A stretch of 54,691 nt of DNA from Candidatus Bathyarchaeota archaeon (GTDB lineage: Archaea > Thermoproteota > Bathyarchaeia > Bathyarchaeales > Bathycorpusculaceae). Positions 1 to 16,101 of the stretch are shown piece by piece (the stretch's first letter is position 1; each line of letters starts with the position of its first letter). The position numbers and the translations under genes were made by a program. The stretch covers positions 1 through 54,691 of the forward strand of contig JARYLR010000008.1 of NCBI GenBank assembly GCA_029907545.1, read 5' to 3'. Under the pieces are notes generated by a model that was not told the origin of the DNA, ran no database searches, and saw only the letters and a list, made by a program, of their open reading frames with translations.

Positions 1-395
1 CTGAGATACTGAAGCCATGCATACCTGAGGTAGAGGTGTTCGTTCAAAACCTCGCTAAGTGCGAGCACGAAGTGAAGGTTGCGAAGAACATCTTGACCCA
101 ATGGTTCCTGGCTCCAAACAACGAGCTCAACCCCAACCCACACATGGGCTGGCTGAACATAACATCGCCGATCTGGGTGACGATTCCTGAGGACATTACT
201 GGCAGCTACTACATCAACACACAGCTAGGCGCACCCGACTGCAAAGTCGACCTCAAAGACGTGCTCGCAGCCGCACTCGCCTTCGGATCCAACCCAGGCC
301 ACGCCAAATGGAACAGCGCCGCAGACATCAACCACGACTACAAAGTCGACCTCAAAGACTACTTCGCCATCGCCGGCAAATTCGGCAAATGGTAA
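1..395 (+). CDS. Dockerin-domain surface protein, C-terminal part (5' truncated by window edge)
   Basis: The frame is open from base 3 to a TAA ending at 395, so this is the end of a longer gene cut by the window start. The last ~55 residues form a dockerin-type duplicated calcium-binding segment. The second loop is canonical (DINHDYKVDLKD). The first loop (PDCKVDLKD) has lost the first Asp and the Asn of the usual DxNxDG pattern, so one calcium site may be weak. Family knowledge: dockerins bind cohesin domains and plug proteins into scaffolds. Cohesin proteins are encoded just downstream on the same strand. The upstream part looks like the end of a beta-rich domain that I cannot name. Likely secreted, but the N-terminus is not in the window. 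Confidence 0.8.
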   Translation, partial: EILKPCIPEVEVFVQNLAKCEHEVKVAKNILTQWFLAPNNELNPNPHMGWLNITSPIWVTIPEDITGSYYINTQLGAPDCKVDLKDVLAAALAFGSNPGHAKWNSAADINHDYKVDLKDYFAIAGKFGKW

Positions 396-417
396 ACGCG
401 CTAAACAGGTTAAACAT

Positions 418-436
418 CCCCTCTTTTTATTTGTTC
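418..436 (+). terminator. T-rich terminator after first dockerin gene
   Basis: CCCCTCTTTTTATTTG lies about 25 bases after the stop. The same pyrimidine/T-run pattern follows most genes in the first 15 kb, as expected for archaeal oligo-T termination. From 437 to about 700 I see no gene or clear structure. Confidence 0.55.
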
Positions 437-702
437 TAAGACAAGATTTTTCTTGCTGATCTATCCAATTTAGAATTGGTGTTTATCTTGGTTTTTACAG
501 AAAGCAGTTCGTCTCTGTGAAGCTGTCTTTAGGTAAGATTATCTATTATACGTAATGCGGGTAGGAACGGCTGCTTGCACATTGCAGAAATCAACGATGT
601 TCGCATTAAGTTAAACATTATGATTATAACATTGATTTTTCATAGTACATGATGCGGTTTTTGCTTCTGCAATATTCTCTTGTTGGATAGAAGATACTTC
701 CG

Positions 703-714
703 GAATGCTTAAAT
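703..714 (+). promoter_or_regulatory. Putative TATA box of the 792-aa cohesin gene
   Basis: GAATGCTTAAAT lies 51 bases before the ATG at 765. Almost the same string (AAATGCTTAAATG, 11021-11033) occurs at similar distance before the 11075 gene, suggesting a shared promoter type in this cluster. A purine-rich RBS (GGAGAAGGGAG) follows. Confidence 0.45.
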
Positions 715-764
715 CCTCAAGACGGTAGAATCTATTGTGCTGAAAAAGGAGAAGGGAGAAAAGA

Positions 765-3143
765 ATGAAGACTAAATTGTTAGCAACCGCAATAGTAACA
801 ATGCTCGTATTAGGCGCTTTCGCAGTTCTTCCGCCTGCATTCGCCGCTAGACGAATCTACCTTGTACCGTCAACTATAAGCTACACCACTTCAACGATGC
901 CAGGAAGCGGGTTGTTCACCGTTAGCGTTTGGGTTGAGACAGACACCGATCTTGGTGGTGTCCAAGTCTACATGGAGTTTGATGACTCCATAATCAACGC
1001 AACACGATTTATCTCCGAAAGTGGCAACCCATCGTTCTTTATGCCTCAACCGCCACCAGCAAGCGAATTGCCAGCACCACCAGACCCAGGTTACCAGCAC
1101 CTAGGACCCAACAAGGGTAGAGTGCAAGTAGCCGTAAGCAAAGGTGGTTTGCCACCTAACGCTCCTTGGGGACACTCAGGCATCTTTGGAACATTCGAAT
1201 TCGAGATAACAGCGCTTCCACAGAAATCCGAGACACTCACCTGCGCACTGCACTTAAACACAAGCAGCACATACTTCTTGGATCCGACATCAGGAGAAGT
1301 TCCAGGTGTATCCAAGGAGGATGGCTCATACACACTGATATGGGCTCCACCAACGACAAACCCATACTTCGCAGTAGACCCAGCAAGCAAGGTTTTCGGG
1401 CCTGATCCACCATCCGCAATCGGTCAAGCATTCGATGAGACGATCATGCTCAAGAACCTGGACGCTGCATGGGGCATCACTGCTGCTTCCTGCAGACTGA
1501 CATACAACTCAACAGTGATCGACGTCATGGGCGGTCTTGCAAACATCACAGTCAACACAGCTGACTGGGATGGAGCAACCAGCGTGACCTATGTTGCTGG
1601 ACAGATTGACATCTCTGTAGCGACATCGAAGACTTTGGGCGGCAACGTTTTGATTGCCACCATAACGTTCACGGTGTTGATACAGAAGAATGCACCTCCA
1701 GCACCACTAACCGACAAGGATGAGTCACCGTTAACGCTGTCAAATGAAGCCTGCCAAGACCACGTTGGCCCAATACCGACAAGCGCATCAGTGAATGGCC
1801 TAGTTACGGTTTGGCCACTTAGACAACTAGACCTGCCATGGCTTGAAGTTGTTCCAACACACTCGATAATGGGTCCCGACCCAGACATCGGCGAAACATT
1901 CACTGTGGGCATAAAGCTCACATCAAAGCCGCCAATATACCTCGACCCTGCATGGAAACTTATCGGTGTACAGTTCAGACTATTCTATGACCCAACACTC
2001 ATAGGCGTAGTCGGCGTCACCGAAGGCCCGTTCCTGCAAGGCTTCGCACCATACGGCACACTCTTCATCTCAAGCGTTGAAAGCAACGGCCTCGGACCAC
2101 ACGTGCTCGTAGGCGAAATGATTCTGCCCAACGGCACAGGCTACTGGAACCCACCATGGCCAAAGGGCCAAGGAATAGTAGCCAACATCGAATTCGAGGT
2201 CCTCAAGCAAGAATGCCCATTGAACTTCACATGCGACCTTGAGCTGACAGGCGTCTTCGGCGAGTGGGCGATTGACGCTGAAGGCAACTACATACCCTTT
2301 GACGCACCAGTAAACGGAGACTACACGATTCTGCCATTCGACCAACCAGGCAGAGTCATCGACATCTACGGAGGCGCAAACAACAACGGCTACTGGACAG
2401 GCTATCCCGGTCCATTCCCAGCACCATACGGTGGACAGGGAATAGACCATTGGATGGACATCGTCTTCCCACAGTCAGAGATCACCATCTACGCATACGT
2501 CACCTACAACTACTGGCCAGTACAATCAAAGCAAGTGGGCTTCGAGATTGAAGGTCCATACGAGAAGCTGCCCAACGGCACACTAGTGCCCAAGCAGAGA
2601 TACCAGATATGGGCCAAGCTCACAGCCACAACCAACGCAAGCGGCATCGCCGTGATCACCTACAGAATGCCGTGGCCATGTGAAGACCCAGATGGCATCA
2701 CAGGCATATGGAAGATCACAGGCACAGTCGTAATCGCTGACGTAGTCGTGACAGACACAATCATATACTACTACGAGCGCCTCGTCTACATAACCAACGT
2801 AACCACAGACAGCTTCTACTACACACACGATGACTGCATCACCGTAACTGTCGACTACCAGACGCACGCAGTGCAAATGTACCCAGCACTGTTTGCCGTA
2901 ACGTTGACAGACGACCTCGGCGTCCCATTCGGAATGAAACTGCACGCCACAAACGTTGGCGGCGCAACATTCTGCACATGGAAGAGGGACAAATTCTCCG
3001 TAACCATATGCATACCGAAATGGGCATACGCAGGCTACGGCCTAGTGCACGTCACATGCTACGACAAAGACCCAACAGACGGTGGATACGCGATCACTCC
3101 AGAATACGCGCCAGCGCCTGAATTCCAGATCGGACCGTACTAA
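765..3143 (+). CDS. Secreted scaffoldin-like protein with three cohesin domains
   Basis: 792 aa. The N-terminus is a clear signal peptide (MKTKLLATAIVTMLVLG..., cleavage probably after AFA, residue ~27). Three cohesin-like beta sandwiches follow at roughly 29-190, 198-348 and 352-530. Each opens with a xxYLxP/VxP strand, then an xFxVxVxV strand, then a GGVQVYMEFDDSI-like strand. The first carries the cluster-specific motifs FFMPQP and KGGLPP...PWGH. Residues 531-792 are Ig/macroglobulin-like beta domains. There is no dockerin and no C-terminal membrane segment, so the protein is probably released or held by other proteins. Its role would be to bind dockerin proteins. ATG 765 has a strong purine RBS. 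It is probably transcribed alone: a T-run terminator follows. Confidence 0.8.
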   Translation: MKTKLLATAIVTMLVLGAFAVLPPAFAARRIYLVPSTISYTTSTMPGSGLFTVSVWVETDTDLGGVQVYMEFDDSIINATRFISESGNPSFFMPQPPPASELPAPPDPGYQHLGPNKGRVQVAVSKGGLPPNAPWGHSGIFGTFEFEITALPQKSETLTCALHLNTSSTYFLDPTSGEVPGVSKEDGSYTLIWAPPTTNPYFAVDPASKVFGPDPPSAIGQAFDETIMLKNLDAAWGITAASCRLTYNSTVIDVMGGLANITVNTADWDGATSVTYVAGQIDISVATSKTLGGNVLIATITFTVLIQKNAPPAPLTDKDESPLTLSNEACQDHVGPIPTSASVNGLVTVWPLRQLDLPWLEVVPTHSIMGPDPDIGETFTVGIKLTSKPPIYLDPAWKLIGVQFRLFYDPTLIGVVGVTEGPFLQGFAPYGTLFISSVESNGLGPHVLVGEMILPNGTGYWNPPWPKGQGIVANIEFEVLKQECPLNFTCDLELTGVFGEWAIDAEGNYIPFDAPVNGDYTILPFDQPGRVIDIYGGANNNGYWTGYPGPFPAPYGGQGIDHWMDIVFPQSEITIYAYVTYNYWPVQSKQVGFEIEGPYEKLPNGTLVPKQRYQIWAKLTATTNASGIAVITYRMPWPCEDPDGITGIWKITGTVVIADVVVTDTIIYYYERLVYITNVTTDSFYYTHDDCITVTVDYQTHAVQMYPALFAVTLTDDLGVPFGMKLHATNVGGATFCTWKRDKFSVTICIPKWAYAGYGLVHVTCYDKDPTDGGYAITPEYAPAPEFQIGPY

Positions 3144-3163
3144 ACTCAATAAACGCTCAAAAA

Positions 3164-3187
3164 CCCCCCTTTTTATTTTGATTTTTC
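3164..3187 (+). terminator. Oligo-C/T terminator after triple-cohesin gene
   Basis: CCCCCCTTTTTATTTTG followed by another T-run, 20 bases after the stop codon; same layout as other terminators in the cluster. Confidence 0.55.
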
Positions 3188-3269
3188 AACAAGACGAGAC
3201 CCCGAACTTTATTCCATAATGCTAATATTCTGCAATCACACTAGGATAACAATCAAAGGGGAGAACGGA

Positions 3270-4901
3270 ATGAGACATTTTACTAGGAAGTCTAGAGGCT
3301 ATAAGTCAACAATCTTAACACTCACCGCCGCCCTCACATTAATAGCAATAATAACGATGTCACGAACGCTTGGAGAACAAACAATAACTTCGCCAGGGCT
3401 CACAGCGACAGCGCAAACCAGCAAGCCAATATATCTATTAAGGGAGAAGGTCATAATCAGTGGCAGCCTACTCTTAGACGGCTCACCAGCAAACAATCTC
3501 GTCGTAAATGTTCAATTCAACAACCCCTTGTCCAATCCAATCGCGTTCAGAACACTTCAGATAGGAACCCCTGCTCAGTCATGGCTGGTAAACATAACCG
3601 CCCTATCTCTGACAGATACAGGCAACAACCCAATTGACACCGCAAAAGTCAGCCCAGGCGGATCAAACACCGTTATAGCCGGAATCACAGTCAAAAACCT
3701 TCAGATTACCGCAAGACAGATCTATGGCACGATAACAATCTTTGACGCAAACATGGCACCATTCTCCGTGAGTTATTTTACAGCAACCTTGGATCCACTT
3801 CAAACAGTAACCCAGCGATACTCACTTGAAATCCCGAAATGGGTAACCCCCGGCAGAGCCATCATAGTAGGCAACGTCTATACCAAAGAGCCAAGCTCTG
3901 CTGGAACAGCTCTCTGCCCAGAGAAAGCAGTCTACTTCTGCATAAGCAGAACCAAACAAGGCATGTTTGGAAACCCTACTCTGCCACCGCCATTTCCCCC
4001 ACAAAACACACCTGGACAATATAAGACAAACATTACTCTCTCGCCGACACCTATGAACGGCACATACACCGCTTACGTGGTCGGCCAAGCAAGCCAAATC
4101 ACCTACTACTCAACCTCAACAACATTCAAGGTTCAAAACAGCGTTGGCTACTCTCCTCAAGCAGCCTTCGCCCATACACCTGAAACAGCTTACATAAATC
4201 AAACTGTGAATTTTGACGGCTCGTTCAGCACACCAGAAGGATATGGAGACACTATAAAGAAGTGGATATGGACCTTCGGAGATGGAACACCAAAAATCAC
4301 CGAAACTGACCCATACATAACCCACACATATCTCCAAGCCAACACATTCACCGTAACCTTAAACGTTACAGACAACGAAAACCTCTGGTGCACGACAACC
4401 AAACGCATAACAATCCTTCCCGAATCAGGACCAACCGCAAGATTCACATGGACACCTGAGCTGCCCTTCAACGATGAATGGGTAACATTCAACGCATCAA
4501 CCTCCACAAGAGGCTGGAGCGCAAAAATTCAAGACTTTCCACCCATACAGACCTATATCTGGAACTTTGGCGCTGGAAACCAGTCAACCACAAACAAGAC
4601 CATAAGCCACATTTTCGGCTCGCCAGGAAACTTTACTGTTCATTTATGGGTGATAGACTCCCTTGGGCGTTCAGGCTACACTTCGCAAATCGTTGAAGTT
4701 TTGAACGGAACAGCAGTCAAAACTTATGATGTGAATGGTGATGGCACTATCGACCTGAAAGACGTTCTGCGCGTCGCCAATGCCTACGGCTCCTATCCAG
4801 GTCACCCAAGATGGGATGCCGCATGCGACTTCAATAAGGACAACAAAGTTGACCTGAAAGACTATCTTCCAGTCGCTATGAACTTTGGAAAAGACCCCTA
4901 A
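3270..4901 (+). CDS. Secreted PKD-PKD-dockerin protein
   Basis: 543 aa from the ATG at 3270, which follows AGGGGAG. An upstream in-frame ATG at 3219 adds residues without a signal-peptide character and is less likely. A hydrophobic signal/anchor (ILTLTAALTLIAIITM) is followed by a beta-rich N-terminal region (~40-290) that I cannot assign. Two PKD domains come next (~295-385 and ~390-480), the first with the hallmark WTFGDG, the second with WNFGAG. A C-terminal dockerin has two full loops (DVNGDGTIDLKD and DFNKDNKVDLKD). PKD domains are typical of extracellular adhesion or polysaccharide contact. Only 11 bases separate it from the next gene, so the two form an operon of paralogues. 147 bp of its dockerin are identical in the next gene. 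Confidence 0.8.
   Translation: MRHFTRKSRGYKSTILTLTAALTLIAIITMSRTLGEQTITSPGLTATAQTSKPIYLLREKVIISGSLLLDGSPANNLVVNVQFNNPLSNPIAFRTLQIGTPAQSWLVNITALSLTDTGNNPIDTAKVSPGGSNTVIAGITVKNLQITARQIYGTITIFDANMAPFSVSYFTATLDPLQTVTQRYSLEIPKWVTPGRAIIVGNVYTKEPSSAGTALCPEKAVYFCISRTKQGMFGNPTLPPPFPPQNTPGQYKTNITLSPTPMNGTYTAYVVGQASQITYYSTSTTFKVQNSVGYSPQAAFAHTPETAYINQTVNFDGSFSTPEGYGDTIKKWIWTFGDGTPKITETDPYITHTYLQANTFTVTLNVTDNENLWCTTTKRITILPESGPTARFTWTPELPFNDEWVTFNASTSTRGWSAKIQDFPPIQTYIWNFGAGNQSTTNKTISHIFGSPGNFTVHLWVIDSLGRSGYTSQIVEVLNGTAVKTYDVNGDGTIDLKDVLRVANAYGSYPGHPRWDAACDFNKDNKVDLKDYLPVAMNFGKDP
4719..4865 (+). repeat. 147-bp perfect direct repeat, copy 1 (dockerin cassette)
   Basis: Compared base by base with 5582-5728: identical over 147 bases, offset exactly 863. 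It covers almost the whole dockerin of the 543-aa protein. Flanking PKD sequence is clearly diverged, so this is local homogenisation or a recent cassette copy. Confidence 0.95.
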
Positions 4902-4912
4902 AGAGATGGTGA

Positions 4913-5764
4913 ATGAATATGAAATCTGCAATAAGGAATATCCTAACGATCTCCGCGGTCATGCTACTAGTTGCCAGCGGACTCGCAATCTTCCCATCCA
5001 CTGCTGGATACCCACCACAAGCCTCCTTCATCTACTGGCCAGCAAAACCCTACCTAAACCAAACCGTCACCTTCGACGCCTCCGCATCATCGCCAGAAGG
5101 TTTCAATGACACAATAATCCAATACGCTTGGACCTTCGGAGATGGGACTCCTAAAGTGACGGAAACTGACCCATACATAACCCACAACTTCACTCAAGTT
5201 ACCACATTCATAGTTACGCTGAACGTCACCGACAGCGAAGGCCTATGGAGCACAACCTCAAAACCGATAACGATATACCCCGAGTTCGGACCAACAGCCA
5301 ATTTTACATGGACGCCCGCTGAGCCGGCCTATAACCAAACAGTGACTTTCAATGCATCATCCACAACGCTTGGCTGGTATGCCAAGAAACAGCGTTTCAG
5401 CCCAATACAGACATACCGATGGAACTTCGGCGACGGCACAGGCGACTTCAACACAGGCGTGCCAATAATTACTCATAATTTCACACAACCTAACAACTAC
5501 AGCGTAAGACTAACAGTCATAGACATGGATGGACGCTCCAACTATATCATCAAAACTGTGCGTGTCTACAATATTACACTAAAAACTTATGATGTGAATG
5601 GTGATGGCACTATCGACCTGAAAGACGTTCTGCGCGTCGCCAATGCCTACGGCTCCTATCCAGGTCACCCAAGATGGGATGCCGCATGCGACTTCAATAA
5701 GGACAACAAAGTTGACCTGAAAGACTATATGCCTGTAGCAGTTAATTTCGGAAAAGATCCTTAA
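4913..5764 (+). CDS. Secreted PKD-PKD-dockerin protein, paralogue of the preceding gene
   Basis: 283 aa. A signal peptide (residues ~3-30, ISAVMLLVASGLAIF) leads into two PKD domains (~35-120 with WTFGDG, ~125-215 with WNFGDG) and a C-terminal dockerin with two intact calcium loops. It starts 11 bases after the upstream stop. ATG at 4913 or 4919 are both possible; GGTG precedes. In effect it is the upstream protein without its N-terminal beta region. Role inferred: a small surface subunit recruited through its dockerin to the cohesin proteins encoded on both sides. No catalytic domain is visible, so the PKD domains would be the functional load. Confidence 0.8.
   Translation: MNMKSAIRNILTISAVMLLVASGLAIFPSTAGYPPQASFIYWPAKPYLNQTVTFDASASSPEGFNDTIIQYAWTFGDGTPKVTETDPYITHNFTQVTTFIVTLNVTDSEGLWSTTSKPITIYPEFGPTANFTWTPAEPAYNQTVTFNASSTTLGWYAKKQRFSPIQTYRWNFGDGTGDFNTGVPIITHNFTQPNNYSVRLTVIDMDGRSNYIIKTVRVYNITLKTYDVNGDGTIDLKDVLRVANAYGSYPGHPRWDAACDFNKDNKVDLKDYMPVAVNFGKDP
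5582..5728 (+). repeat. 147-bp perfect direct repeat, copy 2 (dockerin cassette)
   Basis: Identical to 4719-4865. Identity stops at codon 'tat' (DLKDY): the last residues differ (LPVAMNFG versus MPVAVNFG) and differ also at synonymous positions. Confidence 0.95.
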
Positions 5765-5770
5765 GCCATA

Positions 5771-5788
5771 TCTTCTCTTTTTTTGTTG
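5771..5788 (+). terminator. T-run terminator after PKD-dockerin pair
   Basis: TCTTCTCTTTTTTTGTTG directly after the stop codon closes the two-gene unit. Confidence 0.55.
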
Positions 5789-5826
5789 CGAATGATTTCT
5801 GTTTTCTATGGAAGAATATCCCAAAA

Positions 5827-5836
5827 CCTTTAAAAC
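5827..5836 (+). promoter_or_regulatory. Putative TATA box of the cohesin-dockerin gene
   Basis: CCTTTAAAAC lies ~46 bases before ATG 5882, with the RBS GGAAAGGAGAAGAGG in between. Same spacing as the other promoters in the cluster. Confidence 0.4.
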
Positions 5837-5881
5837 AGTAGCAGCACATAATGTTTTGTTAAAGGGAAAGGAGAAGAGGAT

Positions 5882-7954
5882 ATGAAACTTAATTTAGTAA
5901 AATTGCTAGCTCTTCTAACACTCTCAGCGCTTTTCATAAGCACAAATGTTTTCAGTCCAAGCTACGCAGCCTCGCCACGTATCTATCTGGAACCTTCCAA
6001 CCACTATTATACTACAGATACAGCCTACGTCGGCATGAAGTTCAATGTCACTGTTTGGTGCACGGACGTTCCTAACCTTGGAGGAGCGCAGATCTATGTA
6101 GAATACAACGACACCATAGTCAATGCAACCAGATGGTTCGTCCCAGACACAGATCCCAGCTTCTTTATGCCACTTCCATACGCAGCCCTACCAACACCTC
6201 CTAACACGGGCTACATACATCTCGGTCCTAAAAGAGGAAGCATCAAAGTCTCAGTCTCGAAAGGTGGTCTACCTCCAAACCCGCCATGGGGTCATGCAGG
6301 AAAAATATGCGTTGTCGAATTCAACATAACTGCCGTGCCGGCAACTCCTGGAAAATACACAAGCCTGCTGAAAATCGACACCGAAGACACATTTCTCCTA
6401 GATCCAACCGCTAACGAGGTTCCAGGCGTAATCAAGCAGAATGGCTACTACGAAATACGTAAACCTGGCCCTCAGTACTCGTTAACGATAACATCGAGCA
6501 GCGGTGGCACAACGAATCCCGCGCCAGGCATATACATTCATGAAGGCGGAACAATAGTCTCTGTAACCGCCATTCCAGCCATCAACTACGCGCTTGACCA
6601 TTGGGAGCTTGACAGCGTCAATGTTGGCTCAGCCAATCCGATAGACGTTACGATGGATGCAAACCACAACCTGCATGCGGTTTTCGTGTTTTCTCCGCCA
6701 GTAGGCGCCAGAATCTTTGTTGATCCTCCTGAGATAATTGAGCCTCATGCTATACCATGTCAGACGAATTTCTACGTGAACATCTCTGTTGATGACATAG
6801 CGGATATGAAGACATGCGAGTTCAACCTTACCTATAACACGAACGTGATAAGCATAATAGGCTTAAACTTCCTCAGCGTAGGCGGAAAGTATCCATCAAT
6901 AAACCTCAATGTTAATGATCTTGCAGGGTTTATCTGGGTGAAACTGACCTATGCAACGGCAATAACTATCACTGAACCGACACCGCTCGTCATGCTGACG
7001 TTCCACGTCGACAATTTAGGTGTTTCACCGCTCGACCTCACCGACACCCAGATAAAGGACAGCGGCGGAAACGACATTCCACATGACACGTACGACGGCT
7101 TGTTCATTGCCGTGATCCGCGATGTCGCAGTTAAGAACATAGTGTTGTCAAGAACGTGGGCGTATCCAGGATGGCCCGTTAACATAACTGTGACAGTTAA
7201 GAATGAAGGCAACGTGAGCGAAACCTTCGACCTCTACACCTTCTACGACAGCATCGTGATTGGAACGCAAACGGTAAACAATCTTGCACCTAACGAGGAG
7301 CGAGACGTGGTCTTCACATGGGACACGACAGGCGTTGGTGAGGGCAACTACACGATCAAGGCGGAAGCCCAACAGGTTCCCTACGAGATGGACACAGCCG
7401 ACAACGTTCTAGTAGATGGAAAAGTCTGGATAATGACTCACGTGCACGATGTTGCAGTCGTAGACATAGCCTTGTCGGACAGCTGGGCGTTTCCAGGATG
7501 GGTTGTCGAGATCAATGTTACAGCCGCAAATCTCGGTGACTTCACTGAGACTTTTGACGTGAAAGCCTACTACAACACGACGTTGATAGGGACAGTGCAT
7601 GTTGAAAACCTTCCGCCGGGAGACAACTACTTTGCGCTTTTCACTCTTAATACAACTGGGCTGCTCCCATGCCACACACAAATCATCAGCGGAGAAGCCA
7701 CACTAGTTCCATACGAGTTCAATGAAACCAACAACATCCTTGTTGACGGCGGCTTGAAAATACGCTACACCGGTGACGTGAACGGCGACGGCGTTGTTGA
7801 CCTCAAAGACTACTTGATCGTAGCTGCAGCTTTCGGCTCCTATCCAGGGCATCCACGATGGAACCCTGTGGCAGACATCAACCGCGACAACATGGTTGAC
7901 TTAAAAGACGTGTTCATCGTAGCCAAGAACTATGGACAAGGATGTCCGCCTTAA
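5882..7954 (+). CDS. Scaffold protein with two cohesins, InlB-like repeat, two CARDB domains and a dockerin
   Basis: 690 aa, ATG after AAAGGAGAAGAGG. Layout: signal peptide 1-30 (ends SPSYA); cohesin 1 ~33-195 with the FFMP and KGGLPPNPPWGH motifs; a divergent InlB B-repeat-like unit ~198-275 (LTITSSSGG...HWELDSV...ANHNLHAVF); cohesin 2 ~278-415; two CARDB-type beta domains ~418-520 and ~525-630, each ending in a DNxLVDG-like strand; and a dockerin ~635-690 with two complete loops (DVNGDGVVDLKD, DINRDNMVDLKD). Carrying both cohesins and a dockerin makes it an adaptor: it can accept dockerin proteins and itself dock onto another cohesin, as adaptor scaffoldins do in bacterial cellulosomes. Function here is inferred from domains. 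Confidence 0.8.
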   Translation: MKLNLVKLLALLTLSALFISTNVFSPSYAASPRIYLEPSNHYYTTDTAYVGMKFNVTVWCTDVPNLGGAQIYVEYNDTIVNATRWFVPDTDPSFFMPLPYAALPTPPNTGYIHLGPKRGSIKVSVSKGGLPPNPPWGHAGKICVVEFNITAVPATPGKYTSLLKIDTEDTFLLDPTANEVPGVIKQNGYYEIRKPGPQYSLTITSSSGGTTNPAPGIYIHEGGTIVSVTAIPAINYALDHWELDSVNVGSANPIDVTMDANHNLHAVFVFSPPVGARIFVDPPEIIEPHAIPCQTNFYVNISVDDIADMKTCEFNLTYNTNVISIIGLNFLSVGGKYPSINLNVNDLAGFIWVKLTYATAITITEPTPLVMLTFHVDNLGVSPLDLTDTQIKDSGGNDIPHDTYDGLFIAVIRDVAVKNIVLSRTWAYPGWPVNITVTVKNEGNVSETFDLYTFYDSIVIGTQTVNNLAPNEERDVVFTWDTTGVGEGNYTIKAEAQQVPYEMDTADNVLVDGKVWIMTHVHDVAVVDIALSDSWAFPGWVVEINVTAANLGDFTETFDVKAYYNTTLIGTVHVENLPPGDNYFALFTLNTTGLLPCHTQIISGEATLVPYEFNETNNILVDGGLKIRYTGDVNGDGVVDLKDYLIVAAAFGSYPGHPRWNPVADINRDNMVDLKDVFIVAKNYGQGCPP

Positions 7955-7963
7955 CATTTAAAT

Positions 7964-7981
7964 TCCCTCTTTTTCTTTGTT
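7964..7981 (+). terminator. T-run terminator after adaptor scaffold gene
   Basis: TCCCTCTTTTTCTTTGTTG about 10 bases after the stop. Confidence 0.5.
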
Positions 7982-8035
7982 GATGAAAAGGCTTTTATTT
8001 GAAATGCCATAACATGTTTGAGCGGTGAAAATCGA

Positions 8036-8716
8036 ATGAGAAAGATTGAAGCTAGAAAGGTCTTCTTTGGAATGCTTGCACTTGCTATGGCGACACTCGC
8101 ATGTTCTACGCTAGTTAGTCCAGTTAAGGCTCAGACGGCAAGAATATACCTAGACCCCGCAGAGGTATACATAAACGAAGGAACGCCTGCAGGCTACCGG
8201 TTCAATGTGACAGCGTGGGTTGAGAACTTTACTGCAATCGAGATCGGTGGGGCTCAAATCCACTTGGAATATGAACGAGACATATTAAACGCAACCAGAT
8301 GGTTTGTTCCAGAAACAGATCCCAACTTCTTCATGCCACTACCGCAGTCGGCCTTGCCAACGCCTCCGACCATGGAGCGAATAAACCTTACCTCAAACTA
8401 CGCATACATAGAGCTCGCCGTATTCAAAGGTGGTCTGCCGCCAGTGGCACCTTGGGGTCATGGAGGCATAATCCTAATTGTCGAGTTTGAAACAGAAATA
8501 GATGTCGTAACGGAATACGTAACACCACTGTTCATTAATCATGAATATACATACTTGTTGAACGAAACTGCCATTGAGATTCCGGGTGTCGACAAATACG
8601 ATGGGTCGGTCTATCTCTTACCTGAATATGGGCCAATCATTGCTTTAGGCTTTCTGATGATTTCAACTGCAACATTGGTGGCGCTCAGCAAGAAGAAGCT
8701 TCTCAAGAAGCTCTAG
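8036..8716 (+). CDS. Single-cohesin protein with C-terminal membrane anchor
   Basis: 226 aa from ATG 8036, chosen because GGTGA sits 8 bases upstream; a TTG at 8018 would overlap that site. Signal peptide ~1-33 (FFGMLALAMATLACSTLVS...). One cohesin at ~35-190 shows the full cluster signature: FFMPLPQSALPTPP and FKGGLPP...PWGHGG. The C-terminus is a hydrophobic helix (IIALGFLMISTATLVAL) with a lysine-rich tail (SKKKLLKKL), i.e. outside-facing cohesin, membrane anchored. It is the simplest candidate for a cell-surface docking point for dockerin proteins from this locus. A terminator follows, so it is probably monocistronic. Confidence 0.8.
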   Translation: MRKIEARKVFFGMLALAMATLACSTLVSPVKAQTARIYLDPAEVYINEGTPAGYRFNVTAWVENFTAIEIGGAQIHLEYERDILNATRWFVPETDPNFFMPLPQSALPTPPTMERINLTSNYAYIELAVFKGGLPPVAPWGHGGIILIVEFETEIDVVTEYVTPLFINHEYTYLLNETAIEIPGVDKYDGSVYLLPEYGPIIALGFLMISTATLVALSKKKLLKKL

Positions 8717-8737
8717 CACCTCTTTTTATTCTTTTGT
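8717..8737 (+). terminator. T-run terminator after anchored cohesin gene
   Basis: CACCTCTTTTTATTCTTTTG immediately after the TAG. Confidence 0.55.
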
Positions 8738-8856
8738 GCCCTTTCTTTTTGCAGATTTAGAAAACTTATCTAGAATATAGATCTAGAATAATCTTCTATT
8801 ATCCAAAAGTTTCTTATATTAACACATAAGACTAAGGAGTAGGTGGATATATAAAG

Positions 8857-10809
8857 ATGAAAAAGACAAACACCATTCTACTAGCAGTAACTCTAGCACT
8901 ATCAGCAATACTGCTGCCATCACTCACCCTAATAAACGTCTCCTACGCACTTCCAGGTCCAAGAATCTATCTAACCCCCTCAGACAACACCTTCTACACG
9001 AACGAAACAAGCGTCGGCTACCGCTTTAACGTAACTGTTTCAGTGGAAAACACAACAGACCTAGATGTAGCTGGTGCACAAATCTACATGGAGTTCAACG
9101 ACAGCATAGTCAACGTGACCCGATGGTTTGTTCCAGCCGCGGATCCAGACTTCTTCATGCCATCTCCCTATGCAGCCCTGCCGACACCTCCGGATGCAGG
9201 ATACATACATCTTCCATCAGGATTGGGCTGCATCAAAATCGCTGTCTCTAAGGGCGGTTTGCCGCCTGTGGCTCCTTGGGGTCACGATGGAAAAATCGCG
9301 ATCATCGAGTTCGTGATCAAAGCTGCACCGACAAGTGGGGCATTCAATTGCGCCCTGCATATAGACACGATTGACACGTTCCTCCTTGATCCTCTCGCTA
9401 GTGAGATTCCTAACGTAACCAAGGAGGACGGCACATACACCTACACTTACGTTGCCATTCCAGTGACCGGACACATATGGCTCGAAACTGTGCCAAGTTC
9501 ATACACTGCAGACAGGATGAGACCTTTCAACATCACCGTGATGATCTATAACGTGTCAGCAAGCGATGGGCTTATTGGCGTGCAGTTTGAACTTCGGTAT
9601 AACTCAACCTATCTAGAGCCGATTGCCATCTATCAAGGCACTTTCTTGAACAACTCTGCGTGGGCACAACATGGCACTATTGCAACATTCTATCATGAAG
9701 AGGACAGAACAGTCTACGGCGAAATGATTCTGCCCAACGGCACAGGCGAATGGAACCCGCCGTTCCCAGAAGGAAACGGAACAATGGCAATAGTAACCTT
9801 CCTGCCGCAGCTACATGAATCAATACCGCCTAGCTGGGCTTTCGACATTAATTTAACTCCACTATTCGGACAGTACCTACTTGACCACACCGGCGAGTAC
9901 ATGCCATATCAGCCTGAAGTAGACTGCAGCTACGCGTTTGACCCGTTGCCTTTGCCAACGGTCTCCATAGAACCCAGCCTATACACGGCGGCGCAAGTTG
10001 GAGAAGAGTTCACAATTGACGTGGAAATCAATGACTTGGATGCTGGATGGCAATTCGTCTACGCTGAATTCAAGCTAATGTACGGCGAGAACGTGCTTGA
10101 AGTCTTGGATGTAACTGAAGGAAGTTTCTTAGAAGGCTTCGGAACAACGACATTCAATTACGAGCTTGGCGCTGGATACGTGAAGGTAAACATCACGTTG
10201 ACGCCGACAGCGGAATATCCATCAGGCGGTGGCATACTTGCAAGCATACTCTTCAACGTGACAAAGACTCCTGGAAGATGTCCATTGACTCTTGACGACA
10301 CGGTGCTGCTGGATCCCGAGGACTATGCTGTTCTCCACGACGTCAGCCACGGATACTACAGGCTTCACGAAGTGCTCATTCACCCGATTGTGTGGGGTAC
10401 GGTGACTTATAACGTAGTAACCGTAAGCAACGCTTCAATAACCCCTGTGCCGATGCTGTTCACTCAAACACACCGAATGCTTAACTTCAACGTAACAGAC
10501 GAAGACGGAATGGTAGGCTTTGTCGACGTCACGATACCCAACGTCCTGCTTAATGCGGGATCTGACGAATGGCTGTTGATCGTCGGCGGAAGCCCAGTTA
10601 CACCAACCGTCACCGGAAACCTGACTCACACAACGCTGTCCTTCTATGTTAGCCTAAGCACGAAGAGTGTGTACCTCTTTGGCACTGGAGTGATTCCAGA
10701 GTTTCCGCTGAATGCGCTGCTCTTGGTCTTCTTTGCGTTGACTTTGGCTGGCTTTGCTGCTGTGAAACTTGCTAGGAAGAATGAGCTAGTAGCCCTTCTG
10801 AAACAATAA
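8857..10809 (+). CDS. Membrane-anchored triple-cohesin scaffold with PEFP-type C-terminus
   Basis: 650 aa, ATG preceded by GGAGTAGGTGG. Signal peptide ~1-32. Cohesin-like domains at ~34-200 (cluster motifs FFMPSP, KGGLPPVAPWGH), ~207-365 and ~367-512; then a beta domain ~515-610. The end is VIPEFPLNALLLVFFALTLA followed by a basic tail (KLARKN). A PEF motif just before a hydrophobic helix and basic residues resembles archaeal sorting tails (PEF-CTERM type) but is also common as a plain anchor, so processing by an archaeosortase is only a possibility. Cohesin 2 shares a 30-base identical stretch (9718-9747) with cohesin 3 of the 792-aa protein. Likely the main surface scaffold of the locus. 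Confidence 0.8.
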   Translation: MKKTNTILLAVTLALSAILLPSLTLINVSYALPGPRIYLTPSDNTFYTNETSVGYRFNVTVSVENTTDLDVAGAQIYMEFNDSIVNVTRWFVPAADPDFFMPSPYAALPTPPDAGYIHLPSGLGCIKIAVSKGGLPPVAPWGHDGKIAIIEFVIKAAPTSGAFNCALHIDTIDTFLLDPLASEIPNVTKEDGTYTYTYVAIPVTGHIWLETVPSSYTADRMRPFNITVMIYNVSASDGLIGVQFELRYNSTYLEPIAIYQGTFLNNSAWAQHGTIATFYHEEDRTVYGEMILPNGTGEWNPPFPEGNGTMAIVTFLPQLHESIPPSWAFDINLTPLFGQYLLDHTGEYMPYQPEVDCSYAFDPLPLPTVSIEPSLYTAAQVGEEFTIDVEINDLDAGWQFVYAEFKLMYGENVLEVLDVTEGSFLEGFGTTTFNYELGAGYVKVNITLTPTAEYPSGGGILASILFNVTKTPGRCPLTLDDTVLLDPEDYAVLHDVSHGYYRLHEVLIHPIVWGTVTYNVVTVSNASITPVPMLFTQTHRMLNFNVTDEDGMVGFVDVTIPNVLLNAGSDEWLLIVGGSPVTPTVTGNLTHTTLSFYVSLSTKSVYLFGTGVIPEFPLNALLLVFFALTLAGFAAVKLARKNELVALLKQ

Positions 10810-10810
10810 A

Positions 10811-10829
10811 TTCTCCCCTCTTTTCTTTA
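10811..10829 (+). terminator. T-run terminator after triple-cohesin anchor gene
   Basis: TTCTCCCCTCTTTTCTTTATTG right after the stop. The remaining bases to 11020 hold no recognisable gene. Confidence 0.5.
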
Positions 10830-11020
10830 TTGAGCGGGAAACCTGTTTCTTAGCGGAAATTATGATCGAGGCTGTTCTAGAAGTAGCCTAAACTACGCGT
10901 CTTCGGCTTATTCGAACCGAAATCCAAAGTCTTTCCGTTCAGTCAGTATTGTTTGATCTGCTACTACGTAAACATTGTATCATTCAAAACTTCTTAAGCA
11001 AACTATAGAAGATAGTTCCA

Positions 11021-11033
11021 AAATGCTTAAATG
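11021..11033 (+). promoter_or_regulatory. Putative TATA box of the giant repeat protein gene
   Basis: AAATGCTTAAATG, ~45 bases before ATG 11075, nearly the same as the element at 703-714. RBS GAGGGAGAAGGG follows. Confidence 0.45.
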
Positions 11034-11074
11034 AGTAGCAGACGCAAAATACTAGTGCTGAGGGAGAAGGGAAT

Positions 11075-14000
11075 ATGCGGATGCGTCTTCCAATGTTAGT
11101 ACTGTTTGTGCTTTTTCTCATAATTTTGCCGCTTGCCGCCACCCAGATCAAAAGAAGCGCATACGCCAACCAAGTACCTCTCGCCTCCTTCACATATTCA
11201 CCAAACAATCCTGCACCCGGAGAAACAATAATCTTTGATGCGTCAGCCAGCTACGATCCAGACGGCTGGATAACCCTGTACCGCTGGGACTTCGGAGACG
11301 GCAATGTCACGTCCATGGCAACTTCAACGATAACACATTGCTATCCACTTGACGGAAACTACACAGTAGAGCTCACGGTCACCGACAACAGTGGAGCAAC
11401 AGGAACCGCGGCAGCCGTGATAGAAGTAAGCACAGAAGTCTACTTTAGAGTGTGCTTCTACGGCACAACGATTCCTATGGCGGATGTAGAGGTAACAATG
11501 TACTATAGCACAGGGACTTCTTGGGTTAAAGCTCCAGTCGGATGCGACAAGCTTGAGCTAAGATATGATAAGATGACACAGCCCAATCTTGCAAGTACAC
11601 CTGCAGAGAAATACAGAAACCCGGGCACGACAGCATCCATCCTTCGACAGAATGCAAGCAACATTGGCTTTGATATTCATCCTTCTTGGTGGAAAGTTTA
11701 CTTTAAATTCAAATACGGCGACATCGTAGCTTACTGGCCAAACCACACGACACGAGTATACACTTATAACAATGGTGTTGTTGAGGCGCATGATTATTCG
11801 TCCTCTGCTGGCGCGTATTGGGACCCCACCGCGGGAACCTACGTGATAAGGGCAAAGAACATTCCCAAAAATGGTGTAAGTCCGTGTCAGAACCATCCCA
11901 TAATCGTAGGCATATTCTGTCCGCCGCCAACGCCAAAATACTATCTGACAGTCAGAACCGACCCGCTGGGAATAACCACGATTCCGGGTCAAGGCTTCTA
12001 CGCGTCTGGGACAAATGTGACTTTGACGGCGCCTCAGTATGTTAGTGTTTCTTCTGACACGCGTTACAGTTTCACCTATTGGGATGTTGACGGAGTCTCC
12101 AAAGGTGCAGGTGTCAACCCGATATCTGTGCTGATGAACGCTAACCACACTGCTACAGCACATTATGTTCTGCAGTACCGCGTGAGTTTTGCTCAGACAG
12201 CACTTTCTTCCGACGCAACCGGAACGGTCGTGACCGTTGATGGCTCACCTAAAGCCTACGGAGACCTTCCATACACGAAATGGGTTAACTGCGGCACATC
12301 AGTCACCTACTCTTACAGCTCAACGGTTTCCAGCACCGTTTCAGACAAGAGATACCGGCTAGACAGCGTAACCGGCCCTGCCTCGCCTATTACTGTGACC
12401 GGTCCAGTATGCGTCACAGGCGCCTATGTTACACAGTATCAGGTCACTTTTGCCCAGACCAATCTAGACTCCACGGCAACAGGAGCAGTTGTCACAGTCA
12501 ACGGTATTCCCAAAACGTATGCTGATCTGCCCTACAGCTTCTGGGCTGACAGCGGATCATCGGTCACTTACTCTTACAGTTCCACGGTTTCCAGCACTTC
12601 TCCAGACACGAGGTTCACACTTGTCGCTGTCCACTCGCCGCCATCACCTTTCATTGTCAGCGAACCTGTTACAATCACAGGTGAATACTGCAAGCAGTAC
12701 AAGGTGACTTTTACCCAAACAGGCTTAGATGCGACTGCCACAGGAACAGTAGTCACCGTGAACGGTAGCGCAAAGATGTATACTGATCTGCCTTTCACCT
12801 TGTGGGTTAAAAGCGGCTCATCTATCACATACAGCTATAATGACCCCGTGTTGAGCACGGTTACCGGCAAAAGATTCAAGCTTACCGGCGTTACCGGTCC
12901 TTCTTCACCGATCACCGTGACCTCGCCGGTGACGGTTACAGGAAACTACAAGGCACAATACTATATCACTTTTGGCCAGACCGGCGTCGGCTCAGACTTT
13001 ACAGGGACAGTTGTAACCGTCGACAGCGTTAATTACGGTGTTTCCGGTCTGCCTGTTTCGTTCTGGTGGGACGCTGGTTCCTCGCACCCGTTTGAGTTTT
13101 ACTCTCCACTGGTTGTCAACATCAGCAGACAGTACGACTGGAGCTCTACTACGGGCCTATCAACGTTGCAGAGCGGGACATTAACCGTAACCTCATCTGG
13201 AAGCGTGACTGGCAACTACGTTGTGCATGGCAAATACCAAGTGACCTTCGACCAGACCGGAGTTGGCGTAGACTTTGCTGGAACAGTTGTGGTAATCGAT
13301 GGAACGCCATACGGCGTAAGTAGTCTGCCTGTTTCGTTCTGGTGGGACAACGGCTCAACCCACAGCTTCGCTTTCGCTTCACCTCTCAACGTTGGCTCGG
13401 ACAAGCGGTATGTGTGGACAAGCACGGTTGGCTTGTCTACTTTGCAGAGTGGCTCACTCACGGTGTCTGCTTCAGGTAGCGTTACCGGCAACTATGAGAC
13501 GCAGTACTATCTTGTGTTGGCGACTAGTCCGCCAGGCGTGGCTTCTCCCTCAGGCTTCGGATGGTACGACGCCAACACCTACGCAACAATATCAACCCCA
13601 GCCTACGTAGACATAGTGCCGGGCGCGTCACGGTACCGGTTCAACGGCTGGACAACCCCTGACATGAGCGAGATAACCGACCCCACAAGGACGCCGACGA
13701 CGGTGCTTATGGATAAAGGCAAGACTGTTACTGCCAACTATGTGGTCCAGTACAAGATCACGTTTGACCAGACAGGCGTAGGCTCCGACTACACTGGTAC
13801 AATAGTGACGATTGACGGAACGCCCTACTTCTACAGCGGTTTGCCGATCTCTTTCTGGTGGGACAAAGATTCAGTCCATAGCTTCGCATTCAGCTCGCCT
13901 CTAGTTGTGACGCCTGATGCCAAGCAGTACCTTTGGACAAGCACTACTGGTTTATCTACCTTGCAAAGTGGCTCTATAACTGTTACGACATATGGAAGCG

Positions 14001-14863
14001 TAGTAGGCAACTATGAGACGCAGTACTATCTGGTTGTTAACTCGCTCTATGGCTCACCGACACCTCTCAGCAGATGGTTTGATGCAGGCTCAAGCATCAC
14101 GGCGTCAGTGACCTCTCCCGCAACAGGCCCTACGGGCACCAGATATCTCTGCACTGGCTGGACTGGAACCGGAAGCGTTCCATCCACGGGATCAGGCACA
14201 TCTGTCTCCTTCACGATAAACCAGCCGTCAAGCATCACATGGAACTGGAAGACGCAGTACTATCTAACCGTAAAAACCAACCCGCTGGGAATCACCACAA
14301 TCCCAGGCGAAGGCTGGTACGACGCATTCACCAGCGTAGCCTTAACTGCTCCAAACGTCAGCGGATACCAGTTCAAGTACTGGGATGTTGACGGCAACTC
14401 TCAGGGAAACGGAGTAAACCCGGTCACAGTTATAATCAATGGGCCTCGTACAGCAACAGCCAACTATGGTGCATACACACCTCTGTCCGTGTCAATATCG
14501 CCGCTTCTGGCATATGTTAATCCAGGCCACATCGTGCCATTCACGTCAACAGTCTCGGGCGGCACGTCTCCCTACAGCTACAAATGGTATATGAACGGCA
14601 ACCCGGTGTCAGGTGCAAACGCGTCGACATGGGCGTTCCAGCCTATGGCTGTTGGAACCTACTACGTGCAGTTAGTCGTTACCGACGCAAACAATAATAC
14701 CGCGCAGTCAGAGATAGCGAGAGTGATAGTAAGCGAGCCATCTGTCGGAGGCTACTCGATATCGCTGAGCAAGCCGTACTCGGTTCAAGCAGTATTCAGC
14801 TATGCAGCGCTCCTAGCAGTGCTTGCTATGGCGGTAAGCCTGATCCGAAGAAAGAGAAAATAG
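11075..14863 (+). CDS. Large surface adhesin-like protein: PKD domain, ~10 beta repeats, C-terminal anchor
   Basis: 1262 aa. Signal peptide ~1-31; PKD domain ~33-120 (RWDFGDG); an unassigned region ~125-285; then about ten repeats of ~75-85 aa between ~290 and ~1110. Most repeats follow QYxVTFxQTGxxxxxTGTVV, then a short strand, then LPxSFWW or LPxxxW; two flanking copies are of the InlB/bacterial-repeat type (YYLTVxTxPLGITTIPG). An Ig-like domain (~1120-1215, SPYSYKWYMNG) precedes a C-terminal helix (YAALLAVLAMAVSLI) and RRKRK tail. No cohesin or dockerin is present. Probably a membrane-anchored stalk or adhesin that displays its PKD end outward. Function is inferred from architecture only. 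Confidence 0.75.
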   Translation: MRMRLPMLVLFVLFLIILPLAATQIKRSAYANQVPLASFTYSPNNPAPGETIIFDASASYDPDGWITLYRWDFGDGNVTSMATSTITHCYPLDGNYTVELTVTDNSGATGTAAAVIEVSTEVYFRVCFYGTTIPMADVEVTMYYSTGTSWVKAPVGCDKLELRYDKMTQPNLASTPAEKYRNPGTTASILRQNASNIGFDIHPSWWKVYFKFKYGDIVAYWPNHTTRVYTYNNGVVEAHDYSSSAGAYWDPTAGTYVIRAKNIPKNGVSPCQNHPIIVGIFCPPPTPKYYLTVRTDPLGITTIPGQGFYASGTNVTLTAPQYVSVSSDTRYSFTYWDVDGVSKGAGVNPISVLMNANHTATAHYVLQYRVSFAQTALSSDATGTVVTVDGSPKAYGDLPYTKWVNCGTSVTYSYSSTVSSTVSDKRYRLDSVTGPASPITVTGPVCVTGAYVTQYQVTFAQTNLDSTATGAVVTVNGIPKTYADLPYSFWADSGSSVTYSYSSTVSSTSPDTRFTLVAVHSPPSPFIVSEPVTITGEYCKQYKVTFTQTGLDATATGTVVTVNGSAKMYTDLPFTLWVKSGSSITYSYNDPVLSTVTGKRFKLTGVTGPSSPITVTSPVTVTGNYKAQYYITFGQTGVGSDFTGTVVTVDSVNYGVSGLPVSFWWDAGSSHPFEFYSPLVVNISRQYDWSSTTGLSTLQSGTLTVTSSGSVTGNYVVHGKYQVTFDQTGVGVDFAGTVVVIDGTPYGVSSLPVSFWWDNGSTHSFAFASPLNVGSDKRYVWTSTVGLSTLQSGSLTVSASGSVTGNYETQYYLVLATSPPGVASPSGFGWYDANTYATISTPAYVDIVPGASRYRFNGWTTPDMSEITDPTRTPTTVLMDKGKTVTANYVVQYKITFDQTGVGSDYTGTIVTIDGTPYFYSGLPISFWWDKDSVHSFAFSSPLVVTPDAKQYLWTSTTGLSTLQSGSITVTTYGSVVGNYETQYYLVVNSLYGSPTPLSRWFDAGSSITASVTSPATGPTGTRYLCTGWTGTGSVPSTGSGTSVSFTINQPSSITWNWKTQYYLTVKTNPLGITTIPGEGWYDAFTSVALTAPNVSGYQFKYWDVDGNSQGNGVNPVTVIINGPRTATANYGAYTPLSVSISPLLAYVNPGHIVPFTSTVSGGTSPYSYKWYMNGNPVSGANASTWAFQPMAVGTYYVQLVVTDANNNTAQSEIARVIVSEPSVGGYSISLSKPYSVQAVFSYAALLAVLAMAVSLIRRKRK

Positions 14864-14887
14864 GCTCTCCGTTCTCTTTCTTGTTTG
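14864..14887 (+). terminator. Pyrimidine-rich terminator after repeat protein
   Basis: GGCTCTCCGTTCTCTTTCTTGTTTG after the stop; weaker than the others and only 25 bases before the next RBS, so read-through into the 14913 gene is possible. Confidence 0.35.
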
Positions 14888-14912
14888 TAGCTGCTCCTTC
14901 GGAGTGCAGGCA

Positions 14913-15854
14913 ATGAAAAGGAAAGAGCAAACAGCGTTTTTTATAGGTTTGTCAGAAAGAAAACTAGCGGTCATCGGAGTCTTTGCAGCCGCTTTAGTGG
15001 TTTCTGGAGTGGTGCTTTCCAGCTTTCTTTGGAGAGCACAGAAGCCAACGTTCTCCTTTAAGGCAGCAATCGTTGACCAGCTGGGCGGGAAAGACCAATT
15101 TCCAAATCCGGAGTTTAATGAGACAGGCAGCGTTGCCTCCATGCTGAGAGAAGCCGGCTTCAACGTAACCTACTACAGAAGCGAAAACGTAACTGTCAAC
15201 TTCTACAGGGAGCTGGCCAAGAAAAGCTATGGCATAATTCTCCTTCGAACCCATGCCGCGGTCAGAACAGACGAATCCCTCGTAGATCTGTTTACGTCCG
15301 AAAGGTTCAAAACAGGCATATACGAATACGAACGAAACAACAACCTGCTTACCGGAGCCTACTACAGCTGGAAACCGGGAATCTACTATTTCGCCGTCAC
15401 CTACAAGTTCATAGAGAACATTGAAGGCATCTTCCCCCAAAGCCTGATAATAGCTATGGGCTGCAACACGCTGAACGAGAACTGCACGGAAATGGCTGAA
15501 GCCTTCATTAGAAAAGGCGCTCAAGCATACTTGGGTTGGACAGGCTGGATTCAGCCTTCCCACATGGACAACGAAACAATTAAGCTGCTGCGCGGCTTTT
15601 TGGTTGAAGGCAAAACGCTAAACCAAGTTGTCACTACGGCTCTTCCTGACCCCGACGGAAGCAGAATAGACCTGTATCCTTCCGCAGCTGGAAATCTGAC
15701 GCTGGCAAAGCTGTCTGAGGAAAAAGCGTCTGTTAATGAGGGCTTGATTTGCAGTTTTGAAAAAGGTCTTCCTATAACGGGCTTTTTGAGTGCTCCAGTC
15801 TTCTGGAAACGGTTTCGCACAAATGATTGCGGAGATCATCCCCTGCCAGATTAA
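14913..15854 (+). CDS. Membrane-anchored clan CD (caspase/gingipain-like) cysteine peptidase candidate
   Basis: 313 aa from ATG 14913 (GGAGTG 8 bases upstream; a GTG at 14904 is inside that site). One N-terminal membrane helix (~17-40, AVIGVFAAALVVSGVVL) places the rest outside the cell. The body reads as an alpha/beta fold with the clan CD order: strand plus His (IILLRTHAAV, His ~114), strand plus Cys (LIIAMGCNTL, Cys ~184), then GAQAYLGWTGWI (~205), which matches the loop after the Cys in C25/CHAT-like proteins. Known families with this dyad cleave after Arg/Lys/Asp or join surface proteins (PorU). Location directly after the cohesin/dockerin cluster suggests processing of those proteins; this is inference. 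The 3' end overlaps the convergent gene by 83 bases. Confidence 0.6.
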   Translation: MKRKEQTAFFIGLSERKLAVIGVFAAALVVSGVVLSSFLWRAQKPTFSFKAAIVDQLGGKDQFPNPEFNETGSVASMLREAGFNVTYYRSENVTVNFYRELAKKSYGIILLRTHAAVRTDESLVDLFTSERFKTGIYEYERNNNLLTGAYYSWKPGIYYFAVTYKFIENIEGIFPQSLIIAMGCNTLNENCTEMAEAFIRKGAQAYLGWTGWIQPSHMDNETIKLLRGFLVEGKTLNQVVTTALPDPDGSRIDLYPSAAGNLTLAKLSEEKASVNEGLICSFEKGLPITGFLSAPVFWKRFRTNDCGDHPLPD

Positions 15855-16101
15855 GTCTCTTCAGCTTTCTAATCTCCTCAGCGATCTCAGTGTCCTGCAA
15901 AACCTCGGTCAACCACTTTTCAAAATCCCCGCGGTTCAGGTGAAACTCCAGAGACTTCACGTTTACTTCGCGGATCTTTTCCGCAAACTCGTTTAGAGAT
16001 GAAGCATTTACTCCTGTATAGTTTCCGATTGAGGTGAAAAAGTAAAATGCTTTTTCGCGGGGTAAGACAGCAAAAATGTCTGGTGCGATGTTTGGATTCA
16101 C
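15772..16101 (-). CDS. Small DUF5752-like protein
   Basis: 109 aa, GTG start overlapping the stop of the upstream regulator gene (GTGA), so translationally coupled. The pattern FYFFTSIGNYTGVNASSLNEF ... VNVKSLEFHLNRGDFEKWL is what I remember for the DUF5752 family, whose function is unknown to me. Predicted soluble, mostly helical in the second half. The 3' end overlaps the convergent clan CD gene by 83 bases, unusual for this window. Being co-expressed with an Lrp-family regulator, it may be an accessory to that regulator or a regulated product. Confidence 0.6.
   Translation of the reverse strand: MNPNIAPDIFAVLPREKAFYFFTSIGNYTGVNASSLNEFAEKIREVNVKSLEFHLNRGDFEKWLTEVLQDTEIAEEIRKLKRLNLAGDDLRNHLCETVSRRLEHSKSPL

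Follow-up and report, generated by a model that had tools for sequence, protein, structure and literature searches.

A gene cluster for cohesins and dockerins

The stretch of DNA studied here (the window, 54,691 nucleotides) is contig C54 of a metagenome-assembled genome from an uncultured member of the archaeal class Bathyarchaeia (1.46 Mb, 97% complete, 55 contigs), and it begins with a cohesin-dockerin gene cluster in which seven consecutive open reading frames (ORFs) on the forward strand (3-10809) encode secreted proteins carrying nine cohesins and four dockerins. The original prediction, made by eye from the sequence, had given these same counts, and they hold: five of the cohesins and three of the dockerins are Pfam calls, and profiles supply the other four and one, respectively. 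Its layout of the cluster is likewise borne out, with one adaptor carrying both modules (5882-7954), two membrane-anchored cohesin proteins (8018-8716 and 8857-10809) and one free triple-cohesin protein (765-3143).

The first ORF (3-395) is cut by the contig edge and encodes what is most likely the C-terminal fragment (130 aa) of a solute-binding protein (SBP) of the SBP_bac_5 family, with a dockerin at ~237-386. It is followed by the free scaffoldin (792 aa), which has a signal peptide, a cohesin of a type that we call N-type (849-1337), two further cohesins (1359-1817 and 1821-2336) and a C-terminal beta region, and in which no membrane anchor was found. Two PKD-PKD-dockerin proteins come next, one of 560 aa (3219-4901; PF18911/PF00801, with a PF00404 dockerin at 4719-4889) and one of 283 aa (4913-5764; dockerin at 5582-5752, called by Pfam), the latter being a tandem partial duplicate of the 3' part of the former (67% protein and 70% DNA identity). 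The adaptor scaffoldin (690 aa) combines an N-type cohesin (5975-6457), a B-repeat (6470-6688), a second cohesin (6710-7096), two CARDB domains (~7118-7750) and a dockerin (7769-7936). The two remaining proteins are a minimal anchor, made of a single N-type cohesin (8138-8620) and a C-terminal PEY-type membrane segment, and a membrane-anchored triple cohesin of 650 aa, with an N-type cohesin (8959-9444), two others (9478-9945 and 9955-10356; PF00963 E 9.8e-17) and a C-terminal PEF-type membrane segment (~10672-10806).

Divergent cohesins and dockerins

A search with the Pfam families PF00963 and PF00404, which had been proposed as a check on the module calls, recovers part of the set. PF00963 calls two cohesins in the free scaffoldin, one in the adaptor and two in the triple-cohesin membrane protein, and PF00404 three dockerins, whereas the dockerin at the contig edge and the four N-type cohesins need profiles. 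The N-type domain, ~160 residues long and marked by conserved motifs such as FFMP and KGGLPP...PWGH, forms the N-terminal part of the proteins at 765-3143, 5882-7954, 8018-8716 and 8857-10809 and is not called by Pfam in any of them. A profile of five copies matches the ScaB cohesin with E 1e-4; with 38 copies the match (3l8q) reaches E 1.8e-12 and cohesins take all of the first 18 places among solved structures. Alignment of the N-type profile with the canonical cohesins of the same genome by hhalign gave 99%, and PF00963 matches 13 of the 38 members individually. We treat the domain as a divergent cohesin, a fold assignment supported by sequence profiles only; five Pfam cohesins and four profile-linked ones thus make nine. 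An AlphaFold2 model of the domain from seven sequences had a pLDDT of 38 and was discarded. Three of the four dockerins in the window have both duplicated calcium loops. The first loop is degenerate in the one of the SBP fragment, which matches the dockerin profile with E 1e-26, that profile having the fragment among its 11 rows; a separate profile search also recovered it.

Genome-wide, an improved profile gives 25 dockerin matches in ~23 proteins on ~14 contigs, and further cohesins occur on contigs C10, C13, C33, C43 and C51. On C10, a 274-aa cohesin protein (L216:9554-10378) was missed by the PF00963 genome search and has an OppB-like permease ~7 kb away. On C51, one protein (L024:10122-12341) joins a cohesin to a propeller and an internal dockerin; it also has a SYCGPTA motif that recalls C39-type peptidases, and Pfam calls no peptidase in it.

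Cohesin-dockerin pairs had been described as sporadic in archaea, which does not apply to the cohesins of this class: 101 of the 257 Bathyarchaeia genomes surveyed have at least one. The N-type profile finds matches in 36 of the 257, and relatives of this domain occur in Candidatus Bathyarchaeota isolate QZM_B1_bin_37_1 and in JdFR-07. Both modules are present in 83 genomes and neither in 135, with an odds ratio for co-occurrence of 30, a statistic that, like those on anchors and recognition residues below, ignores shared ancestry.

A dockerin-tagged solute-binding protein

The same genome encodes two SBP-dockerin fusions of family PF00496, on contigs C11 and C27, to which the fragment at 3-395 aligns with 43% identity over 137 positions and 54% over 89, respectively. 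Because these alignments reach beyond the dockerin, the fragment, which had been read as a PKD protein, most likely belongs to a third SBP-dockerin (Opp/Dpp family) of this genome, as its C-terminal end. It aligns as well to the end of the SBP-dockerin at the head of the cluster in one relative (G199). Six SBP-dockerins whose N-termini were inspected (that on C11, the only full-length one of this genome, and five from relatives) have a signal peptide, with neither a lipobox nor any other membrane segment. No contig end overlapping the first 200 bases of the window was found in this genome, leaving the missing half of the SBP unplaced. An OppB/OppC-like pair lies at the edge of contig C10 and the end of an ATPase gene at the edge of C29.

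In several SBP-dockerins (L091:9127-11673 on C11; L068, L083 and L086) the halves of the SBP_bac_5 profile appear in reversed order, as in a circular permutation; residues 54-304 of the C11 protein match profile positions 146-357 and residues ~478-630 match positions 2-137. The order is the normal one in G135 and G138.

Conservation of the cluster across Bathyarchaeia

Gene maps of ~20 genomes, in which the relatives were picked by their cohesins and not by the SBP, show that several families of the class share the cluster. The recurring order begins with the SBP-dockerin, ATP-binding cassette (ABC) permeases and ATPases (divergently oriented in some genomes), the free scaffoldin and a PKD-PKD-dockerin or other dockerin protein. 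It continues with the adaptor, which combines cohesins, CARDB and a dockerin, then the membrane cohesins, a large membrane-anchored PKD/repeat protein and a probable caspase-like protein, and ends with a regulator of the Lrp type, encoded on the other strand, and a pair of small ORFs. An SBP-dockerin is present in all 12 scaffold clusters whose upstream flank is visible (G053, G063, G114, G117, G121, G134, G135, G136, G138, G145, G182 and G199), with the SBP confirmed by Pfam in 11 and, in G134, by a profile of our own. Permease or ATPase genes can be seen in 11 of the 12, all except G114, and Pfam confirmed oligo_HPY, OppC_N and BPD_transp_1 for selected genes. We infer that the transporter adjoins the cluster in the genome studied here as well.

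Two variations concern the PKD proteins. The PKD-dockerin gene is single in most relatives, versus the tandem pair at 3219-5764 of the window, and on contig C95 of G063 (L071/L202) a 4817-aa protein with ~50 PKD repeats and a C-terminal dockerin adjoins the scaffold cluster.

Membrane anchors and recognition residues

Dockerins and C-terminal membrane segments are nearly mutually exclusive. A hydropathy scan covered dockerin and cohesin proteins from the loci fetched, some truncated ORFs included. Of 121 dockerin proteins only one has such a segment (it is absent from 82 dockerin-only and from 38 two-module proteins), against 35 of the 59 that carry cohesins alone (Fisher p 2.7e-20). At the C-terminus of many membrane cohesins, PEF or PEY precedes a hydrophobic helix and a basic tail, a pattern that resembles the PEF-CTERM sorting signal. 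A NCBIfam scan gave no match to a sorting signal, with only weak or irrelevant hits.

The choice of partner by clostridial dockerins depends in part on positions 10 and 11 of each calcium loop. Across unrelated proteins, 14 of 22 dockerins of the genome studied here have LK at these positions in both loops, and other genomes have their own residues there (VD in G063, VR in G114, GK in G135, MK in G145). Among pairs with no more than 60% identity elsewhere, agreement at these four positions was 0.62, 0.49, 0.46 and 0.45 within genomes versus 0.17, 0.12, 0.20 and 0.10 between them. None of 200 label shuffles reached the within-genome agreement observed, and random sets of four other columns also fell short of it. 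The top-ranking column of the dockerin alignment (column 2) was disregarded, as it lies at the alignment edge and holds few residues. Gene conversion (concerted evolution) could contribute to the genome-specific positions.

These folds might be ordinary beta-sandwich and calcium-binding modules that are unpaired in this organism; many archaeal surface proteins do consist of repeated modules, and the degenerate first loop of SBP-type dockerins would fit. We consider this very improbable, since the strong co-occurrence of cohesin and dockerin across genomes, the genome-specific recognition residues common to unrelated proteins and the near-exclusion between dockerins and C-terminal membrane segments all point to pairing. 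That the dockerins bind the cohesins of the cluster, and which of them would bind which, we infer from sequence.

Dockerin clients and the search for enzymes

Pfam matches in the dockerin proteins of the genome comprise PKD, CARDB, NosD/beta-helix, LamG, propeller, MG2 and SBP_bac_5 domains. One protein encoded outside the window (L029:5092-8169) joins a dockerin to AAT (PF03417) and M14 carboxypeptidase (PF00246) domains. In a spread sample of 61 dockerin proteins from relatives, the families listed include S8 (two proteins), C25, M14 and penicillin amidase (one each) and polysaccharide deacetylase (two), together with several enzymes of phosphoesterase type. The description of the system as being without enzymes is thus right for the dockerin partners in the window and wrong for the genome as a whole and its relatives.

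No glycoside hydrolase appeared in Pfam scans of ~20 dockerin proteins of the genome, for which no dedicated CAZy scan was made, or among the 25 commonest families of the 61 proteins from relatives (13 rarer families lie outside that listing). The scaffoldins of the window have no carbohydrate-binding module called by Pfam. As neither was seen in these scans, a cellulosome was rejected, in keeping with the prediction of an archaeal cohesin-dockerin surface assembly other than a cellulosome. It appears highly improbable that the cluster serves a cellulosome-like polysaccharide-degrading machine with enzymes that lie elsewhere in the genome or have diverged beyond recognition, although its adaptor and scaffoldins are laid out as in cellulosomes, one dockerin protein carries a LamG lectin domain, beta-helix proteins could in principle act on polysaccharides and two of the relatives' dockerins are attached to polysaccharide deacetylases.

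The predominance of PKD, CARDB, beta-helix and B-repeat domains among dockerin partners agrees with an adhesive or structural coat, where cohesin-dockerin pairs would crosslink PKD, CARDB and B-repeat proteins into a matrix by which cells attach to one another or to surfaces and the binding protein would be a minor passenger. The giant PKD-array dockerin protein of the G063 cluster also speaks for it, as does the cell-contact role suggested for the cohesin-dockerin proteins of anaerobic methanotrophic (ANME) archaea (PMC5244752). An adhesin matrix does not, however, predict a conserved cluster headed by a solute-binding protein together with permease and ATPase genes, and peptidase-type dockerin proteins exist. 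A coat as the main function seems to us unlikely, though deserving of some weight, and the emphasis that the original prediction placed on it overlooks the main partner, the SBP-dockerin, whose relatives head the cluster beside ABC transporter genes.

Neighbouring genes and a probable caspase-like protein

Downstream of the seven ORFs lie two forward-strand genes that we count as part of the cluster and in which no cohesin or dockerin was found (11075-15854). One encodes a membrane-anchored PKD/repeat protein of 1262 aa (11075-14863; PF18911, PF18998) whose position in the cluster is conserved. It contains a long array of ~85-100-residue repeats (YxVTFxQTG...), in which Pfam names just three weak B-repeat matches.

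The other (14904-15854) encodes a membrane-anchored protein, by an N-terminal segment, with a probable caspase-like (clan CD) fold, of a family found in 94 of the 257 genomes. Residues H117, C187, R115, E133, W212 and D222 are invariant in 29 homologues. In a low-confidence AlphaFold model from two sequences (pLDDT 52.7, pTM 0.55), H117 follows the third strand and C187 the fourth, the places that the two catalytic residues take in the alpha-beta fold of clan CD. Foldseek matched the model to CHAT, separase, caspase and gingipain at TM ~0.3, mixed with unrelated fusion constructs of G-protein-coupled receptors. Pfam gave no match, and a sequence search of the PDB, with the protein alone and with a 28-row profile, returned nothing. 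The protein is likely a caspase-like peptidase. As 16 of 49 matches to its family have a cohesin on their contig at a distance of no more than 25 kb, the family is often, not always, linked to the cluster, and we therefore do not claim it as a core part.

An Lrp/AsnC-family regulator on the reverse strand (16098-16637; PF13404, PF01037) adjoins the cluster in a conserved position, and two conserved forward-strand ORFs of 163 and 192 aa (16904-18035) mark the same chromosomal site in relatives. Farther along the window are the genes for the RNA polymerase subunits Rpb2 and Rpb1 (28128-35316, ~12 kb downstream of the cluster) and a close grouping of methylmalonyl-CoA mutase, MeaB, thiolase-like and acyl-carrier-protein-synthase-III-like genes (42995-51589).

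Discussion

Archaea have been known since 1999 to possess cohesins and dockerins that are not part of cellulosomes, and Bayer (1999) and Peer (2009) reportedly described such proteins from Archaeoglobus fulgidus. The bathyarchaeal cluster shares with the clostridial cellulosome the cohesin-dockerin logic, an adaptor scaffoldin, surface anchors and genome-specific residues at loop positions 10 and 11. It differs in that no glycoside hydrolase or carbohydrate-binding module was found, in its membrane or PEF-type anchors as opposed to SLH domains or sortase, and in its partners, which are binding proteins, PKD proteins and peptidase-type enzymes.

Archaeal pairs of these modules are reported to bind specifically and strongly in the A. 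fulgidus work cited in PMC9012536. The same article cites Peer 2009 for the lack of archaeal multi-cohesin scaffoldins, in contrast to the two triple-cohesin proteins, the adaptor and the ~23 dockerin proteins found here. Both modules are enriched in ANME archaea (PMC5244752), where dockerin-tagged NikA/OppA and multi-cohesin proteins have been reported (PMC9012536), so that to speak of an undescribed system, as the original prediction did, was too strong. Dockerin-tagged OppA in non-cellulosomal archaeal systems is already known from them, and the bathyarchaeal cluster is a variant thereof, in a different phylum. Common to it and the systems of ANME-1/2a/2c are the SBP-dockerin fusions and the union of a dockerin with several cohesins in one protein, as in the adaptor of the window. 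By contrast, the ANME accounts, in the parts consulted, are genome-wide lists that give no conserved operon with transporter genes and mention neither membrane-anchored single cohesins nor the N-type cohesin; this comparison concerns the published accounts, not the ANME genomes themselves. In bacteria, the cellulosome-like complex of Candidatus Stygibacter (Cloacimonadota) includes dockerin-tagged peptidases of families S8 and C25, for which a role in polypeptide degradation has been inferred (PMC8542988), similar to those of the bathyarchaeal relatives. Unlike the system studied here, it has glycoside-hydrolase dockerins and one very large scaffoldin with carbohydrate-binding modules, and the parts of that account consulted describe no SBP-dockerin.

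On balance, we favour the view that the cluster encodes a surface scaffold for nutrient capture, which seems reasonably probable. The membrane cohesins at 8018-8716 and 8857-10809 would retain secreted proteins that end in a dockerin in place of a membrane anchor, and the adaptor, with its two cohesins and dockerin, and the free triple-cohesin protein would multiply the docking sites. One main client would be the Opp/Dpp-type solute-binding protein, thereby kept near its ABC transporter. Others, encoded elsewhere, would include PKD, beta-helix, propeller and lectin proteins and the AAT/M14 hydrolase, such that release, capture and uptake of peptides may come together. A peptide is the likeliest ligand of the SBP, over oligosaccharides or nickel, because of the Opp-type genes and the peptidase-type dockerin proteins.

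Several points weigh against this view. The permease and ATPase pieces identified in the genome lie at the edges of other contigs and not beside the cluster, whose own contig begins inside the SBP gene. SBP_bac_5 proteins also bind oligosaccharides or nickel, and enzymes are a minority among the dockerin clients. Most dockerins lie at the C-terminus, a position that in itself partly precludes a C-terminal helix, and some clients might be anchored by an uncleaved signal peptide. The disregard of shared ancestry in our statistics counts on the same side.

A more tentative extension of nutrient capture, which we hold to be possible without thinking it probable, is that Bathyarchaeia use dockerins generally as detachable anchors to the cell surface. 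The ~23 secreted proteins per genome would then be sorted to that surface by a genome-specific code read by membrane cohesins, uniting peptidases, the oligopeptide-binding protein and the transporter in an extracellular feeding complex. Bathyarchaeia are abundant in anoxic sediments, and those that ferment peptides have few recognised extracellular peptidases. If true, a detachable anchor would help to explain how they begin protein degradation, dockerin-tagged peptidases held at the surface being one possible answer. The conserved cluster of membrane cohesins, scaffoldins, dockerin-tagged binding protein and Opp-type ABC genes would give these modules a concrete, testable role in archaea, namely nutrient capture with a dockerin in place of the membrane anchor.

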